Source: a virus. From it: 30,487 nucleotides of DNA. This document shows, one piece after another, positions 24,142-30,487 of this stretch (position 1 is the first letter of the stretch; each line of letters starts with the position of its first letter). The stretch spans positions 1 to 30,487 of the IMG/VR virus record IMGVR_UViG_3300032331_000051, one strand, 5' to 3'. Below the pieces are notes generated by a model that saw only the letters and a list, made by a program, of their open reading frames with translations, did not search any database and was not told the DNA's origin. The translations under genes and the position numbers were made by a program.

Positions 24142-24383
24142 ATGATGTGTTAAATAACAGGCAAATTGAATACGGATCTGCTCACACTAACTTTGCACAA
24201 GTGGGTAGGGGGTGGGGTGCTTTACTAGGAATTGACGACATACCTGCTTGGCAAGTTGCTTTGATGATGGATTTTTTTAAATCAGTGCGTTGTTCAGTCA
24301 ATCCTGCGCATGAAGATAGTTGGATAGACAAACAGGGCTACACGCAACACGGATTAGAGATTGCAATGACAGATGAGCCTTGA
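24129..24383 (+). CDS. DUF6378-like phage protein
   Basis: An 84-residue protein with IEYGSAHTNFAQVGRGWGAL, VALMMDFFKSVRC, NPAHEDSWIDKQGYTQHG, which is the pattern of small phage proteins of the DUF6378 family, found in many tailed phages without known biochemical role. It overlaps its left neighbour by 13 nt and its right neighbour by 11 nt. Confidence 0.8.
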   Translation: MSKVNDVLNNRQIEYGSAHTNFAQVGRGWGALLGIDDIPAWQVALMMDFFKSVRCSVNPAHEDSWIDKQGYTQHGLEIAMTDEP

Positions 24384-25407
24384 AGATCAGTTTAAGAATT
24401 TACCTGACGAAATTGAAAGCACTGACGTAAAAGAGTTGCGTCAAGCGCTCATGCGGTTGCAGAAACAATTGCGTCAATCCAAAGAGCGCACCCAAGATCT
24501 AGTTGAAGCATCACACCAAGCAGCCTATGACGCAATGCTGACAATGGGCAAGATCGAACCCGTCACAACACCCACTATTGATAAACGCAAAACCAAAGGT
24601 GAAGTGGCGTTGTGGCACATGACGGATTGGCAAGGCGCAAAACGCACCACCTCATACAACAGTGAGATTATGCGCAAGCGCGTGTTGGAGTTTTGCAAAA
24701 AGGCAGTGCGCATTACCGAGATCCAAAGAGCAGATCACCCTGTCAAAGAAGTAACAATCTGTTTTGGCGGGGACATGGTTGAGGGTTTGTTTAACTTTCC
24801 TACCCAAGCATTTGAGGTAGATGCCACGTTGTTTGAGCAATACGTCAATGTATCCAGATTGTGCGTTGATGTTGTGCGGTATGCGTTGTCAAATTACGAG
24901 AAGGTCACTGTTATTGCAGAGTGGGGTAATCATGGGCGCATTGGATCAAAGCGCGACAACGTGCCACGCTCAGACAACTTTGACCGTATGTGCTATGAAC
25001 TTGCCCGTCAGTTGCTTCAGGGGGAGAAGCGACTGACGTGGCAAGACTGTCCAGAGGACATACAGCGCGTTGAAATTGGCAACTATCGGGCTTTGCTTAT
25101 TCATGGAGATGAGGTAGGTAGAAATGGATTTGCTTCACCAGGTGCAATCGTTCAGCACGCAAACAAGTGGCGCTCAGGATCTTATCCATGGGACTTCAGA
25201 GATGTTTACATTGGTCACTACCACACGCACTCAGAATGGGCAATGGCAAACGGTCAAGGTAGTGTCTATCAAACAGGTAGTACGGAAAGTGACAATAGAT
25301 ACGCGGGTGTAATGCTTGCGGCAAGCGCAACACCGTCTCAGCGATTACATTTCATTGACCCAGTTAAAGGCAGAGTGACGGCAGTGTATAAAGTATGGCT
25401 GGATTGA
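24373..25407 (+). CDS. Calcineurin-like metallophosphoesterase
   Basis: A 344-residue protein. After a coiled-coil N-terminus (about residues 15-55) the five motifs of the superfamily are in order: D85 (HMTDWQ), G133-D134 (GGDMVEG), G185-N186-H187, H244-G245-D246 and G281-H-Y-H284. These bind two metal ions. Phage members are DNA nucleases or phosphatases; the nearby recombination genes make a DNA substrate plausible. Substrate cannot be assigned from the sequence. Confidence 0.88.
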   Translation: MSLEDQFKNLPDEIESTDVKELRQALMRLQKQLRQSKERTQDLVEASHQAAYDAMLTMGKIEPVTTPTIDKRKTKGEVALWHMTDWQGAKRTTSYNSEIMRKRVLEFCKKAVRITEIQRADHPVKEVTICFGGDMVEGLFNFPTQAFEVDATLFEQYVNVSRLCVDVVRYALSNYEKVTVIAEWGNHGRIGSKRDNVPRSDNFDRMCYELARQLLQGEKRLTWQDCPEDIQRVEIGNYRALLIHGDEVGRNGFASPGAIVQHANKWRSGSYPWDFRDVYIGHYHTHSEWAMANGQGSVYQTGSTESDNRYAGVMLAASATPSQRLHFIDPVKGRVTAVYKVWLD

Positions 25408-25559
25408 TTTGTTACCACGTGTACAAAATAATAAACAAAGAAATTTGCACAAACTGCAATCAACCAACCCATGAAACAAATTGGGCTGAAGTAAATCTCA
25501 AACACAAAGAATGGATTGAAAGCGGTCAAGCCACTCCACAAGGCTGGAGTTCTATCTAA
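25395..25559 (+). CDS. Small CxxC protein
   Basis: A 54-residue frame starting ATG 25395 inside the end of the phosphoesterase gene and ending TAA 25557-25559. It has ICTNCNQPTH, a possible half zinc site, and NWAEVNLKHKEWIESG, a helical segment. It is shorter than usual gene-finding cut-offs. Its stop overlaps that of the opposing gene. Confidence 0.55.
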   Translation: MAGLICYHVYKIINKEICTNCNQPTHETNWAEVNLKHKEWIESGQATPQGWSSI

Positions 25560-25783
25560 TCTTCATCGTCATCGTCACCGTCAAAAATAAACGGATCTGT
25601 TGAGCGAATGTCTATGCCAACCTCTTTGCAGTGATTGAGTGAAGCAATAAATAAATCTAATGCGCGGTTACTGAGATCTGTCAATTGATCTGGGTACGAC
25701 GACTCATGCTCAACTTCAACCCACAATTGGTGCAGGCTGATAACTATCTTGCCGCCAGGCGGGGTGTCGGGTGTCTTAGCCAT
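25556..25783 (-). CDS. Small acidic protein on the opposite strand
   Basis: The only leftward gene I can support: 75 residues from ATG 25783, with helix LTDLSNRALDLFIASLNHCKEVGID and a C-terminus of seven acidic residues (DGDDDDED). No good ribosome binding site is visible. The frame stays open upstream to 25912, but that part overlaps the divergent control region and looks less protein-like. It could be a regulator, or a DNA-mimic-like protein judged from the acidic tail; that is only a suggestion. Confidence 0.55.
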   Translation of the reverse strand: MAKTPDTPPGGKIVISLHQLWVEVEHESSYPDQLTDLSNRALDLFIASLNHCKEVGIDIRSTDPFIFDGDDDDED

Positions 25784-25912
25784 ACCAGTAGTTTGCCATT
25801 GGTTACAAAAAAAATCACGCGACGCGCCAGGTTCAATCCCTGACTTTTGTAATTTGTGGCTCATAATTATCGGGACAGAGCAGACAATGCTCCCCAAATG
25901 AAAGGTAAGCAC
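25784..25912. promoter_or_regulatory. Divergent intergenic region with putative rightward promoter
   Basis: About 130 nt between the leftward gene and the annealing-protein gene. CTGACT (25840-25845) and CATAAT (25862-25867), 16 nt apart, look like a -35/-10 pair for rightward transcription. The region also holds TTACAAAA (25803-25810) and TTTTGTAA (25845-25852) as an inverted repeat around GGTTCAATCCC. Confidence 0.4.
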
Positions 25913-26476
25913 ATGGCAGGTAAGTTTGATCTTGACGCGTACGAGACGGTTGAAGTTAGATTACGCAGGCTATACGCCAAATTTCCAGAAGCCAGAGTAT
26001 TGACAGATCTGGTTTTTCACGATGAACGCAGGTTTATTGTCAAGGCTGAGATCTATCTTGACCGAGACGACATGACGGCAGTTGCTAGCGGATACGCTGA
26101 AGAGATTGTTGGCGCGTCGCCTGTGAACCGCACCTCAGCCCTAGAAAATGGAGAGACCAGCGCAATTGGGCGCGCAATCAGCAACTCAGTGCTTTGTTTG
26201 GAGGCTTCAGAAGGTAAGCGCCCAAGCAGATCTGAAATGGAGAAGGTTGAGCGATACAGCAAAGAGCCACGCATGGCGGTTGTGAAAGAAAAGCAGTGGA
26301 CACCTGCTGACGAGAGACAAGCGCTATTGGCAATTGAGGCTGCAAACCTTAGCGTGAGCGTAGATGAATTGAAAGCAATTTGGGAAGCAAACAAGGACAT
26401 TGCAGACCTTGAAATTGCTGGCATGACCTTGAAATCAAAGGTCAATCAAAAAAAGGCTGAGTTTGACGGTGAGTAA
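25913..26476 (+). CDS. Putative single-strand annealing / ssDNA-binding recombination protein
   Basis: A 187-residue protein. Residues 5-95 form an alpha/beta domain (TVEVRLRRLYAKFPEARVL, RRFIVKAEIYLD) that ends in SALENGETSAIGRAIS. The E-T-S-A-x-G-R-A motif is shared with phage annealing proteins of the Erf/Sak-like kind. The C-terminal part is a variable linker and a small helical domain. AAAGG (25901-25905) precedes ATG 25913. The Cas4-like nuclease and RusA downstream fit a recombination module. The family call is tentative. Confidence 0.5.
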   Translation: MAGKFDLDAYETVEVRLRRLYAKFPEARVLTDLVFHDERRFIVKAEIYLDRDDMTAVASGYAEEIVGASPVNRTSALENGETSAIGRAISNSVLCLEASEGKRPSRSEMEKVERYSKEPRMAVVKEKQWTPADERQALLAIEAANLSVSVDELKAIWEANKDIADLEIAGMTLKSKVNQKKAEFDGE

Positions 26477-26906
26477 CATTGAACTGCAACTACCGCTTAC
26501 TCCATACGCAGGCACTATGGGTTGGGACGGATCTGGGGCTACCAGCCTCAATCAATCACAAACCCTCAATCACGTCAGAGCGCAAGGTGAGCGCGGTTTA
26601 ACTTGGTTTGAGTTGGCTGAAATTATGAACTGGCACCACGGCACAGCATCAGGGCAATTATCGGTGTTGGACAAGGTTGGCTTGCTCAGACGCTTGAAAG
26701 AGAAGCGCGGTAGATCCTCAGTGTATGTGCTGGCGCAATACGTCAATGGGCGCGAGTTAGCCAAGCGCAGACAGAGCAAACTAACTTTGGTGATAGATCT
26801 GGCTGACGGGGTTGATCGCCAAACAATCATTGACTACCTTAACTGCGTTGCCCTATGCAAACTTGAAGAGGACAACAAAGAGATTATTGGTTGGGAGTGG
26901 AAATGA
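26469..26906 (+). CDS. Winged-helix DNA-binding protein
   Basis: About 145 residues. A winged helix is visible in LTWFELAEIMNWHHGTASGQ, LSVLDKVGLLRRL, RSSVYVLAQYV, typical of regulators with a MarR/ArsR-like fold. The rest is helical. I chose GTG 26469, which overlaps the preceding stop; a TTG at 26463 is closer to AAGG (26455-26458). A regulatory or replication-accessory role is likely; the target is unknown. Confidence 0.65.
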   Translation: MSNIELQLPLTPYAGTMGWDGSGATSLNQSQTLNHVRAQGERGLTWFELAEIMNWHHGTASGQLSVLDKVGLLRRLKEKRGRSSVYVLAQYVNGRELAKRRQSKLTLVIDLADGVDRQTIIDYLNCVALCKLEEDNKEIIGWEWK

Positions 26907-27103
26907 ACAAGATTGAATTGCTAAGCACAATGGCAAAAGTCAATGCAGCGCTGAACACAAACGATTATGGACAACTGGCGCTTGCGTTAGGCATGACAAA
27001 AGCAATGGTTGAAGAAATGACGTTGCAGGACATCATGGAAGCAATGACAGTACGCATGGCAGACCTCAATAGAGAATTGGAGAAAGTTTTACACAATGAG
27101 TAA
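26903..27103 (+). CDS. Small helical hypothetical protein
   Basis: A 66-residue, helical protein with ATGA overlap to its left neighbour. LALALGMTKAMVEEMTLQDIMEAM reads as two helices, in two pieces either side of VEE. No family is recognised. Placed in a row of small early genes. Confidence 0.65.
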   Translation: MNKIELLSTMAKVNAALNTNDYGQLALALGMTKAMVEEMTLQDIMEAMTVRMADLNRELEKVLHNE

Positions 27104-27350
27104 TCAAAAAAAATTCAAAGCACCGCAGGGCTGGGTGACAGCAGTTCACGTCAACGCTATTGGTATTACAGAGACAGCCAAGCGTTTGGACATTTTGCCT
27201 AGCAAATTGGCTCAGGCAATGGAAGAAACAGGTTTCCAAATGCTTCCTGACCCAATGGACATAAGCGCAGACACAGCAAAGGTAATGCTGATTGAAGAAA
27301 AGAAAACCAGTGGCGCACCTGATCTCCAAGTAGTTGAGGATCCAGCATGA
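27096..27350 (+). CDS. Small hypothetical protein
   Basis: An 84-residue protein overlapping its left neighbour by 8 nt and the right one by 4. The middle (VNAIGITETAKRLDILPSKL) could be a helix-turn-helix-like helix pair; the tail is acidic. Function unknown. Confidence 0.65.
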   Translation: MSNQKKFKAPQGWVTAVHVNAIGITETAKRLDILPSKLAQAMEETGFQMLPDPMDISADTAKVMLIEEKKTSGAPDLQVVEDPA

Positions 27351-27706
27351 GCCAAATAGTTACACCGCAGATGATTGAACAAAAACTGCGCGCACTTTCG
27401 CATGAGGTAGATCAGTCACACAAAGATCTTGCTGAGGCTGAACACCTTTATTACACAACCAAAGCCAAGTATGAATTGGCGTTGGCTCACGGGCGTTTGT
27501 CTTTTTCAGGCAAACAAGATACAAAACTTACTGTGTCAGACAAAGCAGACATGGCGCTGGTATCTACTGAGGATCTTCATTTGAAAATGGCGATTGCAGA
27601 AGCAACAGTACGCGCTGCAAGATCCAATGCTTCACGCATACGCACCCAAGTGGACATTGCTAGATCAGTTGGCACATCAGTGCGAACAAGTATGGAGTTG
27701 TCATGA
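27347..27706 (+). CDS. Coiled-coil hypothetical protein
   Basis: A 119-residue protein, nearly all helix: residues 5-50 and 75-115 form heptad-like runs (HKDLAEAEHLYYTTKAKYEL, and later RAARSNASRIRTQVDIA). Proteins of this type are common in actinophage early regions, without known role. It overlaps both neighbours by 4 nt. Confidence 0.65.
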   Translation: MSQIVTPQMIEQKLRALSHEVDQSHKDLAEAEHLYYTTKAKYELALAHGRLSFSGKQDTKLTVSDKADMALVSTEDLHLKMAIAEATVRAARSNASRIRTQVDIARSVGTSVRTSMELS

Positions 27707-27843
27707 CAGAGGAAAACGGATTTGCACAAACACCGCTAGGTCAATCTGTGTTTTTTGCCTACGTTGAGGCGTACGCCAAGAAGCACAACATCACAAGAGA
27801 AGAAGCAATTATTCAACTGAGCAATGGAGATACTGATGAGTGA
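27703..27843 (+). CDS. Very small hypothetical protein
   Basis: A 46-residue frame, ATG overlapping the preceding TGA (ATGA), with helices GQSVFFAYVEAYAKKHN and TREEAIIQLS. It ends overlapping the ATG of the next small gene. The tight coupling and protein-like sequence support it; function unknown. Confidence 0.6.
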   Translation: MTEENGFAQTPLGQSVFFAYVEAYAKKHNITREEAIIQLSNGDTDE

Positions 27844-27922
27844 GGGTGAGTGCAGCACGTGTGGATCTGCTTGCGAGATCTGCGCACTAACGCAAGAAGC
27901 AAATGAGGCAACTGATGATTGA
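27836..27922 (+). CDS. Cysteine-rich microprotein
   Basis: A 28-residue frame: ATG 27836 to TGA 27920-27922. It has CSTCGSACEIC, four cysteines in an 11-residue stretch, followed by an acidic tail, suggesting a metal-binding knuckle. It overlaps the genes on both sides (8 nt each side). The size makes it uncertain, but it fits the overlapping gene chain. Confidence 0.45.
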   Translation: MSEGECSTCGSACEICALTQEANEATDD

Positions 27923-28586
27923 TCTCAATGAGATGTTGGTCAAGTCTCTCAATGCCTTTGACGCAAGCAGATCACGCTCACTTCAAGTTGAGGTTGGTCC
28001 AAGCAGTATTGGTGGTTGTCGCAGGCGCGTGTGGCATGAGTTGAAACAAACGCCAGAGACCAACCCCAACACAGAGTCACTTGCTGCAATTCTTGGGACG
28101 TTTATTCACTCAGGAATTGAAAAGGCAATTAGGCGTGAGGATCCATTTGGTGACAACTTTATTATTGAGGGTGAGTTCAAGGCGGGTGATCTCAAAGGTC
28201 ACGTGGATCTATTTATCAAGGACATTGGCTTGGTAGTGGATTGGAAAACAACCAAGGTCAAATCATTGCGGTACTTCCCGTCACAACAACAACGCTGGCA
28301 AGTGCAGATTTATGGCTGGTTGCTTGAACAAAACGGTCACACGGTCAATGAGGTAGCGCTGGTTGCAATACCGCGTGACGGCGAAATGGCAGACATACGT
28401 GTTCATAAAGAAACTTACGACGCGCCAACAGCATTAGCGGGGATAGCGTGGCTTGAAGGGGTAAAGTCAATAATTGAAAACAATGAGCCAGCACCGTTGC
28501 CTGAAGAGTCACCATTCTTTTGCACCAAATACTGCTCGTATTACGATCAGACAGGAGAAGTGGGTTGCCCAAGTACGAAGAAGTGA
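27915..28586 (+). CDS. Cas4/RecB-like PD-(D/E)XK nuclease with Fe-S cysteines
   Basis: A 223-residue nuclease. H65 (LGTFIHSGIE), D98 (GHVDLF) and D109-x-K111 (VVDWKTTK) make up the RecB-type active site, followed by QVQIYGWLL as the QxxxY motif. C35 at the N-terminus, with C203, C207 and C218 near the C-terminus, matches the layout of 4Fe-4S Cas4/AddB nucleases. ATG 27915 is preceded by GAGG at 6 nt. Phage proteins of this type act as 5'-3' exonucleases feeding annealing proteins; there is no CRISPR array nearby. Confidence 0.85.
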   Translation: MIDLNEMLVKSLNAFDASRSRSLQVEVGPSSIGGCRRRVWHELKQTPETNPNTESLAAILGTFIHSGIEKAIRREDPFGDNFIIEGEFKAGDLKGHVDLFIKDIGLVVDWKTTKVKSLRYFPSQQQRWQVQIYGWLLEQNGHTVNEVALVAIPRDGEMADIRVHKETYDAPTALAGIAWLEGVKSIIENNEPAPLPEESPFFCTKYCSYYDQTGEVGCPSTKK

Positions 28587-28939
28587 ATTGGGAATTGGCT
28601 GAGTGTCGCGGTATGTACACCGATCTGTTCTACCGCGTTGAAGAGGAACGCAACGTTGACGCATACTTCTACATCAATGCGGTCAGAGAGGTATGCGCAC
28701 GTTGTCCTTTGTGGAAGCAGTGTTTCCAATACGCGTACGAAAATGAAAGATTTGGGGTGTGGGGTGGAATGACCTCACTTGAACGCGCGTCATTTGATAA
28801 GCCAGAGAAGTATCCAGTTCAAAGGCAACGGGCATTGAGATCTTTGTCTGACTTTGGAATAACTTTAGAAAACATTAGGAGTGCAATTGAGCATACGTCT
28901 CATGTCGGAAGTTTGGCTGACAAAACTACCGCTGACTGA
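28565..28939 (+). CDS. WhiB-family Fe-S transcription regulator
   Basis: A 124-residue protein. C14, C44, C47 and C53 (EC, then VCARCPLWKQC) are the four ligands of the WhiB 4Fe-4S cluster, followed by G64-V-W-G-G68, the typical turn. The C-terminus is basic and could bind DNA. TTG 28565 is preceded by GGAG (28554-28557) at 7 nt and overlaps the nuclease gene. WhiB proteins occur in Actinobacteria and their phages, so this is the main evidence for the host. Phage copies can repress host whiB genes, as shown for mycobacteriophage TM4 WhiBTM4. Confidence 0.93.
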   Translation: MPKYEEVNWELAECRGMYTDLFYRVEEERNVDAYFYINAVREVCARCPLWKQCFQYAYENERFGVWGGMTSLERASFDKPEKYPVQRQRALRSLSDFGITLENIRSAIEHTSHVGSLADKTTAD

Positions 28940-29696
28940 AAAAATGGTTTTGCTTGTCATTGCAGATCACGCCAGCGATGACGGTACTGAGGCTTGGCCA
29001 AGCCAAGTCACAATAGGCAAAAAGGCGAGCATCAGCGTTCGCACTGTTCAGCGTTCAGTCAATTCATTGGTAGCCAAAGGTTACATTTGGTTACAAAAGG
29101 GCGCTGGTGGATCTGCAACCTGCCGAGAGGATCGCAGACCGCATAAATACACAATCAACCTATCGGTGCTACGGGGCGACGTTGCGACCACCCGCAAGTC
29201 ACGGGGCGACGTTGGCGACGTGGACGGGGCGACTCTTACGCCTGACACGGGGCGACTTTCGCGACCTATGAACCTTCCTAAAGAACCGTCCAAAGAAACA
29301 CCCTTTGATTTGTTTTGGAAGGTGTATCCATTGAAGGTAGGAAAGAGCGCAGCAAAGAAGGCTTGGGATAAAGCAATCACAGAAGAGGATCAAGACAACA
29401 TCATCAACGGCGCATTGCAGTACGCGCGGGATCCCAACAGACACCCGTCATACACCGCACACCCGTCCACTTGGTTGAACGCTGGACGCTGGGCAGATGA
29501 CCCGTTGCCAGCGCGCGAGATCAGCCCTGAAGAAAAGAAAGCACAAGAAGTTGAGTCAGCACGACTCAACTTTGAGCGTGAGCGCAAGGCAAATGAGGCG
29601 TGGTTTGCAGAACAAGAGAAGCAACGCGCCAAGGCTGTGCCAATGCCTGAGTCAATTAAAAGCCTGATCCGAAAGCGTGTGCCTAACCAACAATGA
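28887..29696 (+). CDS. Replication initiator / replisome organiser-like protein
   Basis: A 269-residue protein. The N-terminal 85 residues form a winged helix (PLTEKMVLLVIADHASDDG, SVRTVQRSVNSLVAKGYI), as in phage replisome organisers. A linker of about 45 residues follows, then a C-terminal DnaD/helicase-loader-like domain with FDLFWKVYPLKVGKSAAKKA and HPSTWLNAGRW. TTG 28887 is used because AGGA (28877-28880) lies 6 nt before it; it overlaps WhiB by 53 nt. The linker-coding DNA holds four iteron-like repeats, as in lambda O where the origin lies within the initiator gene. Confidence 0.8.
   Translation: MSIRLMSEVWLTKLPLTEKMVLLVIADHASDDGTEAWPSQVTIGKKASISVRTVQRSVNSLVAKGYIWLQKGAGGSATCREDRRPHKYTINLSVLRGDVATTRKSRGDVGDVDGATLTPDTGRLSRPMNLPKEPSKETPFDLFWKVYPLKVGKSAAKKAWDKAITEEDQDNIINGALQYARDPNRHPSYTAHPSTWLNAGRWADDPLPAREISPEEKKAQEVESARLNFERERKANEAWFAEQEKQRAKAVPMPESIKSLIRKRVPNQQ
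29171..29256 (+). repeat. Four iteron-like repeats ACGGGGCGAC, putative replication origin
   Basis: Perfect 10-bp copies at 29171-29180, 29201-29210, 29224-29233 and 29247-29256, with start-to-start distances 30, 23 and 23. They encode the low-complexity linker of the initiator in different reading registers, so protein constraint does not explain them. A less GC-rich stretch follows from about 29270. Confidence 0.7.
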
Positions 29697-29953
29697 AGCA
29701 GGACAAGGATCAGATCCTGCGCTACAAGCGTGCTTTGTTGATGATTGAAGCAGAAGCAGACATGGCTGAGTGGGTTGCAGAAATGGATCAGATTTACCTT
29801 GACCGACACGAAAGCCTAGTAAGGCTGATGCAAGCACCTAGCGGGGCTGGAGAGCGCTGCAAAAGGCGTACATCAGAGTCAGAGTTGGACACCGACGCGC
29901 AGGGCTTAAAACAGCACTCAGAGGCTTATTTGGGTGGCATAGATCACTTGTAA
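29693..29953 (+). CDS. Small helical hypothetical protein after the initiator
   Basis: An 86-residue protein overlapping the initiator by 4 nt. A long helix (RALLMIEAEADMAEWVAEM) is followed by a charged, disordered-looking tail. It lies where phages often keep a helicase loader, but it has no P-loop. Its stop codon lies within the first palindromic box (29949-29961). Confidence 0.65.
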   Translation: MKQDKDQILRYKRALLMIEAEADMAEWVAEMDQIYLDRHESLVRLMQAPSGAGERCKRRTSESELDTDAQGLKQHSEAYLGGIDHL

Positions 29954-29979
29954 CCATTACAATTTATGTAACCATTACA
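29949..29979. promoter_or_regulatory. Two palindromic TGTAACCATTACA boxes (putative operator)
   Basis: TGTAACCATTACA at 29949-29961 and again at 29967-29979, 18 bp apart. Each is itself an inverted repeat (TGTAA and TTACA around CCA). They end 5 nt before AGGGAG, the ribosome binding site of the next gene. Confidence 0.65.
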
Positions 29980-29994
29980 GACAGGGAGTGACAG

Positions 29995-30186
29995 TTGCTA
30001 AAGACAACCGTTGTTCAACCAATGCACCTACAAATGGGTGATCACGTTGTAATCAATAACCAAGAACTAACAGTAAAGTATGTTGATGTGCCAGATCGAA
30101 TTGGCACTTGCGATTTGTATGTGATAGATCAACAGGGACGCGACCAACACGCAATTGTTACAGGGCTGGTTACAATAGTAGTGTGA
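29995..30186 (+). CDS. Small beta-rich protein behind the operator-like boxes
   Basis: A 63-residue protein, TTG start preceded by AGGGAG (29984-29989) at 5 nt. Strand-rich pattern MHLQMGDHVVINNQELTVKY, VDVPDRIGTCDLYVI, HAIVTGLVTIVV, like a small barrel. Function unknown. It overlaps the RusA gene by 4 nt. Confidence 0.65.
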   Translation: MLKTTVVQPMHLQMGDHVVINNQELTVKYVDVPDRIGTCDLYVIDQQGRDQHAIVTGLVTIVV

Positions 30187-30487
30187 TCCAATTCAGAGTT
30201 GACGGCAAACCTGTACCGCAAGGTTCGATGAGTGCTGTCAATGGACACGTGTTTCACTCGCAAGGCTCAGCCCTAGCGACATGGCGCGCGTCAATTGCTA
30301 TCGCTGCACGTCACGCTGGCGCTAAACCCAGCGCTCAACCCATTTCAATGACAATGGTATTTATTTTTCAAAAACCAAAAACAGTTACAAGATCTGAACC
30401 GACTGTACCGCCTGATTTGGATAAATTGATACGCGCGGTATTAGACGGATTGACGGCGATAGCGTACAAAGATGACGCGCAAGTTAC
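30183..30487 (+). CDS. rusA: RusA-type Holliday junction resolvase (3' end missing)
   Basis: 101 residues are visible from GTG 30183, which overlaps the preceding stop (GTGA). The start FRVDGKPVPQGS, and then P77-D78-L79-D80-K81-L82, V86-L87-D88-G89-L90 and K96-D97-D98-A99-Q100-V101 are the RusA pattern; the aspartates are the metal-binding catalytic residues. RusA cuts four-way junctions, useful before DNA packaging in a recombination-dependent phage. The window ends within the gene, shortly after the conserved motif. Confidence 0.9.
   Translation, partial: MIQFRVDGKPVPQGSMSAVNGHVFHSQGSALATWRASIAIAARHAGAKPSAQPISMTMVFIFQKPKTVTRSEPTVPPDLDKLIRAVLDGLTAIAYKDDAQV

Follow-up and report, generated by a model that had tools for sequence, protein, structure and literature searches.

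Where would replication start in the phage represented by IMG/VR virus record IMGVR_UViG_3300032331_000051, and what is the role of the short repeats lying within its replication-initiator gene? The window analyzed here is the whole record, a linear sequence of 30,487 bases that is probably a fragment, and the gene in question encodes an N-terminal winged helix-turn-helix (wHTH) domain, a linker in which the repeats (iterons) fall, and a C-terminal FDLFWKVYPLKVGK-type domain (Table 1). Sequence comparisons make it very probable that the phage's initiator binds these repeats, which are set inside the gene encoding it, and there is a strong likelihood that the replication origin lies within this gene in a lambda-like, two-part arrangement. 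A comparable layout, accompanied by a second conserved repeat, is found again in many phages that are only distantly related.

The PHROG_270 family, described as 'replication initiation protein', matches residues 6-252 and thus most of the protein (E=6.7e-36), and Pfam HTH_36 matches its N-terminus (E=6.2e-15; 55.2 bits versus a cut-off of 25). In an AlphaFold2 model the wHTH domain is folded, the linker (~residues 99-124) is of low confidence and the C-terminal part is mostly helical; block means of the predicted local distance difference test score were 80-89 at residues 11-70 and 52 at residues 71-80. The best Foldseek matches in the PDB were to MarR-family wHTH proteins and to the N-terminal domain of DnaD, with no E value under 1e-3, and a PDB search by sequence profile gave no match at E<=1.

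A sequence-only reading made earlier had reported four exact copies of ACGGGGCGAC at 29171-29256, spaced 30, 23 and 23 nucleotides apart, in different reading phases and between the wHTH and C-terminal domains, and these details were borne out exactly. The copies occupy 29171-29180, 29201-29210, 29224-29233 and 29247-29256, in codon phases 2, 2, 1 and 0, and are translated as RGD, RGD, GAT and GRL. No further ACGGGGCGAC occurs in the window on either strand with one mismatch allowed, and CGRGGCGAC is found only four times. Dinucleotide shuffles of the whole window contained a mean of 1.08 ACGGGGCGAC matches (at most one mismatch), with 4 of 100 shuffles reaching four anywhere. The excess stands out far more when their clustering in a single linker is considered. 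When the protein was held fixed and codons were redrawn from the usage of 16 window open reading frames (ORFs), any 10-mer occurred four times in the linker in none of 20,000 recodings and three times in 62 of them, and more than two copies of GGGGCGAC in the initiator gene were likewise never obtained (0/20,000).

Relatives were gathered by a viral-contig scan (37) and a profile scan (80 loci, many on the same contigs). With 4 of 287 loci left out for want of a wHTH ORF and genes under 420 nucleotides excluded, there were 126 unique linkers, 53 of them from proteins at least 60% identical to that of the window over the wHTH domain and 39 after removal of near-duplicates. Among these 39 relatives, the iteron 10-mers had a mean nucleotide diversity of 0.084, compared with 0.39 for the linker outside them, 0.32 for the wHTH domain and 0.38 for the C-terminal part, copy 2 being aligned in 33 of 39 and differing in spacing in the remainder. 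At third codon positions the corresponding values were 0.135, 0.46, 0.58 and 0.58, so the earlier claim that the DNA itself is conserved holds. Relatives that share the N-terminal domain and have no repeats had been named as what would refute the idea; instead, each of the 39 has three or more copies with no more than two mismatches, with exactly four in 32 and the 30/23/23 spacing in 26. The consensus of the aligned copies is A-CGGGGCGAC-N5-CGMC, in which the left arm is near invariant and the right arm (CGMC at +14 to +17, 0.62-0.93 bits) is weak and mirrors the left about +10, forming a dyad of ~19 bp. In many relatives the half-site of iteron 4 is CGCCCC, which gives a GGGGCG-N7-CGCCCC dyad. 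Iteron copies within one phage change in concert: all four are altered alike in L029 (GRGGCGAAAT; GGCGAAAT), and CGTC stands in place of CGAC in three of four copies in L090, four of four in L093 and three of four in L095. Exceptions to the iteron pattern are L034-type genes, with fewer copies, and L077, with two CGGGGCGAC copies plus variants.

The wider family was clustered at 80% wHTH identity, yielding a first set of 51 clusters (proteins under 145 amino acids excluded) and later a second set of 32 other clusters. A cluster was counted as having in-gene repeats when the count of its top exact 7-mer, words of the second element (below) excluded, was reached in at most 10 of 200 synonymous recodings. 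This held for 39/51 and 24/32 clusters, or 63 of 83, and in relatives the repeats always lie between the two initiator domains. The arm sequence varies by clade, with GG(T/C)G often in common: L105-L117 have GGGGTGTC along with perfect inverted copies of it, Arthrobacter phages have GGGGTGAAC/GGGGTGCAC, and others have CCCCCGAAG...CTTCACC. In the 37.8-kb genome of Arthrobacter phage Galaxy, GGGGTG[AC]AC occurs only four times, every one in the initiator gene. A phrog_270 search matched 10 of 14 control genomes, and this family was therefore not used for counting; the loci from the 9 of 396 Actinomycetota genomes that match profile A1 (L387-L395) enter no count. BLAST match regions were opened for 6 of 320 and 9 of 334 records, in addition to lambda and the complete Galaxy record, with Purky left out of the analysis.

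Covariation between the repeat and the N-terminal domain, proposed in the sequence-only reading as a check, was found and then upheld on new sequences, with modest phylogenetic power. Residue 56 tracks the second base after GGYG, Arg occurring with C and other residues with A. A base was called when it was in the majority, with n>=3 and a share of 50% or more, which left 17 clusters of the first set (51) and 10 of the second (32) without a call. Of 34 calls in the first set, 32 follow the rule (Arg/C 24, non-Arg/A 8; Fisher p = 2.5e-6), and the two exceptions, L285 and L118, both have Arg with T and seemingly lack GGYG iterons. By excess mutual information, position 56 also ranked first among the columns (0.64, the next reaching 0.25). 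With the rule fixed beforehand, 19 of 22 calls among the new clusters were as predicted (Arg/C 4, non-Arg/A 15), many of the new non-Arg clusters belonging to one clade; the failures were L365, L324 and L379 (Fisher C versus not-C p = 0.003). On a tree built without column 56, Arg/non-Arg changes at least 8 times. Arg56 may be the equivalent of Arg65 in SlyA. In SlyA, which has a related fold, one of the contacts described is a bidentate bond of Arg65 to a guanine (PMC5526998).

A second element, absent from the sequence-only reading, follows the iterons and opens a relatively A+T-rich stretch; it is made up of tandem AACC(A/G)TC(A) units 10-13 nucleotides apart. Its third-position diversity is 0.25, compared with 0.60 for the remainder of the gene, where no other 12-site run falls below 0.44. 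A+T content in the window is 0.32-0.35 over the iterons and up to 0.60 after them, and over the 51 clusters the rise is moderate, the mean being ~0.38 across the iterons and 0.53 immediately beyond them. The search pattern (at least two AACC[AGT][TC]C at 9-16 nucleotides) was defined on the first set after several patterns had been tried, and there it found runs in 23 of 51 clusters versus a synonymous null mean of 2.9 and maximum of 7 (200 recodings); in 19 clusters the runs spanned two or more reading phases (null 1.9, maximum 6). The second set had runs in 22 of 32 clusters (null 0.9, maximum 3), all of them multi-phase, with gaps between units of 10 nucleotides (20 times), 11 (7) and 9 (1). 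Together, 45 of 83 clusters carry the element against a null of about 4. Pooled units read (G)AACC(A/G)TC(A/C), the core letters being set by the search pattern and the flanks not. The phase shifts between units rule out a pure protein repeat, and the place of the element beside the iterons suggests a role in opening or loading.

We envisage a mechanism in which the wHTH domain, probably as a dimer, would bind each of the four ~19-bp iterons through the strong left arm CGGGGCGAC and the weak inverted right arm CGMC, with Arg56 of the recognition helix reading one G:C pair of the iteron arm. The filled array may then distort the DNA such that the adjoining A+T-richer stretch opens, starting with the tandem GAACCNTCC units, and the C-terminal domain could next recruit the helicase or its loader.

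Several observations weigh against this model. Cumulative GC skew, suggested earlier as a test of the origin, is monotonic in Galaxy with no switch at the initiator gene; we consider the measure uninformative, given the monotonic Galaxy skew and a window that is a fragment. No helicase or loader gene was identified among the 10 window ORFs scanned (24373-30485), although the window ends at RusA and a loader may lie beyond. Twenty of the 83 clusters are not above the repeat null, in a test blunt enough to leave the proven in-gene origin of lambda O unflagged (52/200 recodings reach its top 8-mer count), so that clusters failing it are not thereby shown to lack iterons. Residue 56 was spotted by eye in the first set and then tested in the same set, and the tree offers only 5 supported independent pairs, of which on average 4.3 change in the same direction (median p 0.125); base changes in the opposite direction averaged 0.0, arising once in one of 200 pairings. 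L029 is in effect a counterexample, since Arg56 is retained while every copy carries A at the base that residue 56 tracks, although this case falls short of the calling threshold. In the L078 clade all four iteron positions are still occupied, by GGGGCGGC, GACACGAC, GACACGAC and GGAGCGAC, two of them degenerate; the recognition helix in this clade is near-identical, and the origin of L078-L082 and L119 is possibly altered or decaying.

What else might the repeats be? Proteins with a wHTH domain of MarR-like fold are usually repressors, and since structure matches point to such a fold in the initiator, whose origin activity is putative, the repeats could bind the initiator for regulation (autorepression or copy control), with the origin elsewhere. 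We regard this as unlikely, for the sites are about 280-370 nucleotides inside the gene, away from the promoter, and always between the two domains in relatives, while the tandem second element directly 3' resembles an origin-opening region. That the array serves another protein, as a centromere-like parS, a host factor site or a recombination site, is less probable again: the repeat tracks a recognition-helix residue encoded by the same gene, and no partition gene was detected among the 10 window ORFs with Pfam and PHROGs, even though such arrays are reported from plasmids and plasmid-prophages (PMC7157519).

The repeat would be a protein feature if RGD-like repeats in a disordered linker were what is selected, with the DNA likeness secondary. 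Two copies do encode RGD and the linker is of low confidence in the model. But three reading phases are represented among the copies, third positions are nearly invariant within them and variable around them, and synonymous nulls do not yield the repeats, which already contradicts this explanation and leaves it barely any probability. An origin within the initiator gene, bound by the initiator itself, is the reading we prefer.

Table 1 Features of the initiator gene and its putative origin (window coordinates)
Feature	Position	Strand	Description or evidence
Replication-initiator gene	28887..29696	+	269 codons + stop; PHROG_270, Pfam HTH_36, relatives
Winged-helix DNA-binding domain	28890..29159	+	Residues about 2-91; Pfam HTH_36, AlphaFold2 model
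Arg56 codon	29052..29054	+	In predicted recognition helix (51-64); top mutual-information column, out-of-sample test, AlphaFold2 helix
Iteron 1	29171..29189	+	ACGGGGCGAC + CGAC as weak inverted half-site, closer by one base than in other copies
Iteron 2	29201..29219	+	ACGGGGCGAC + half-site CGAC
Iteron 3	29224..29242	+	ACGGGGCGAC + half-site CGCC
Iteron 4	29247..29265	+	ACGGGGCGAC + half-site CGAC
Second element	29270..29303	+	GAACCTTCC (29270), GAACCGTCC (29283), GAAACACCC (29295); spacing 13 and 12; two codon phases

The gene more likely starts at TTG 28887 than at GTG 28881, because TTG 28887 is aligned with the ATG of relatives and AGGAG lies at 28877-28881, five bases upstream; annotation tools may pick GTG 28881. 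By Pfam and PHROGs, the neighbors of the gene encode a Cas4-like/PD-(D/E)XK exonuclease, a WhiB-like protein and a RusA resolvase, and the next ORF (29693-29953, 86 amino acids) has no Pfam or PHROG match. A near-palindromic TGTAACCATTACA occurs as two exact copies 18 nucleotides apart (29949-29979) at the end of this ORF and upstream of the following one, and the pair looks like an operator. In the genome-contig scan one relative was located in an Actinomycetota metagenome-assembled genome, which agrees with the presence of a WhiB gene and with relatives among Arthrobacter phages. The DnaA-box pattern TTWTNCACA is found in the window at 1341, 19666, 27087 and 7690 (minus strand), with none inside the initiator gene. 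By eye, TTATCCACA-type DnaA boxes lie among the iterons in the linkers of L104 and L105-L117 and are absent from the window gene; some members of the family may also use DnaA. Two further phages were noted. The initiator gene of Gordonia phage Vendetta (L291:988-1779), which has a related C-terminal domain and sits beside a DnaB-like helicase gene, contains five tandem 11-bp units in three phases (null 1/200). The RepO gene of Pontimonas phage phiPsal1 (L123:1414-2220) contains four 15-bp spaced CAGTGGAA/TTCCACTG copies in a single phase, and is followed by a small gene annotated as replisome organizer, at the position that the 86-amino-acid ORF has in the window.

In-gene origins are reportedly common among phages, as the review of Weigel and Seitz from 2006 is said to describe. 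The in-gene layout is already known, and what looks new is the family-wide two-part structure together with the residue-base link. Neither the second element nor the residue 56 rule was described in the papers listed by our literature searches, which leave most subscription papers uncovered and so give weak evidence of novelty, and a search with the element sequences returned only unrelated papers among the matches listed (best 20 of 1,916). As a tentative proposal, about which we remain somewhat doubtful, a large and unrecognized class of phages of Actinobacteria, Proteobacteria and others might have in common an origin of two parts concealed within the initiator gene: GG(T/C)G-anchored iterons with a variable triplet read by recognition-helix residue 56, and an AACC(A/G)TC(A) array, helically phased and much more widely conserved than the iteron sequence, as a strand-specific opening or loading element. 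The in-gene origin favored here would provide a sequence rule for locating replication origins in many phages whose initiators are annotated merely as HTH proteins, and would supply naturally occurring protein-DNA pairs that vary together at one residue and one base. It would also highlight the conserved second repeat as a candidate player in phage origin opening.

A published precedent for iterons inside an initiator gene comes from lambda and Stx phages, whose iterons are described as imperfect inverted repeats of ~19 bp followed by an A+T-rich region (PMC7466680). Lambda, like the window, has four iterons inside the initiator gene, between domains and in shifting phases, with a spacing of 20/24/23 in gene O versus 30/23/23 here, but its iteron sequence is different and no AACCRTC array follows. 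'Lambda-like', as the sequence-only reading had it, thus applies to the layout and not to the protein, which has no detectable similarity to lambda O: hhalign of profile A1 against lambda O gave a probability of 0.4% over 1 column, A1 being shallow (effective number of sequences 2.0). The best PHROG family is phrog_277 for lambda O and phrog_270 for the window initiator, phrog_277 not being among the matches of the latter, whereas the weaker 'O-like' PHROGs 391, 678 and 345 match both.

ORF49 of lactococcal phage BK5-T, a distant homologue (27.9% identity), has an annotated repeat_region inside the initiator gene, with repeats spaced 22-23 nucleotides; their sequence differs from that of the window iterons, and there is no AACC element. 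For mycobacteriophage RepA, a repA segment alone is reported to replicate, and the origin has been suggested to lie in or next to repA, as with lambda O; that work left its position open between in and near the gene, and its authors identified no repeats (PMC7157519). Our comparison with RepA is based on Phayonce rather than Miko, Rachaly or Jeeves: proteins annotated as RepA-like, Phayonce gp66 among them, have a related C-terminal domain, with the match confined to the C-terminal part, and the Phayonce gene contains an 8-bp tandem repeat weakly above the null (10/200). In iteron plasmids such as RK2, iterons are described beside tandem 13-mers in an A+T-rich opening region (PMC5043065). RK2 resembles the window in that its iterons adjoin tandem units.
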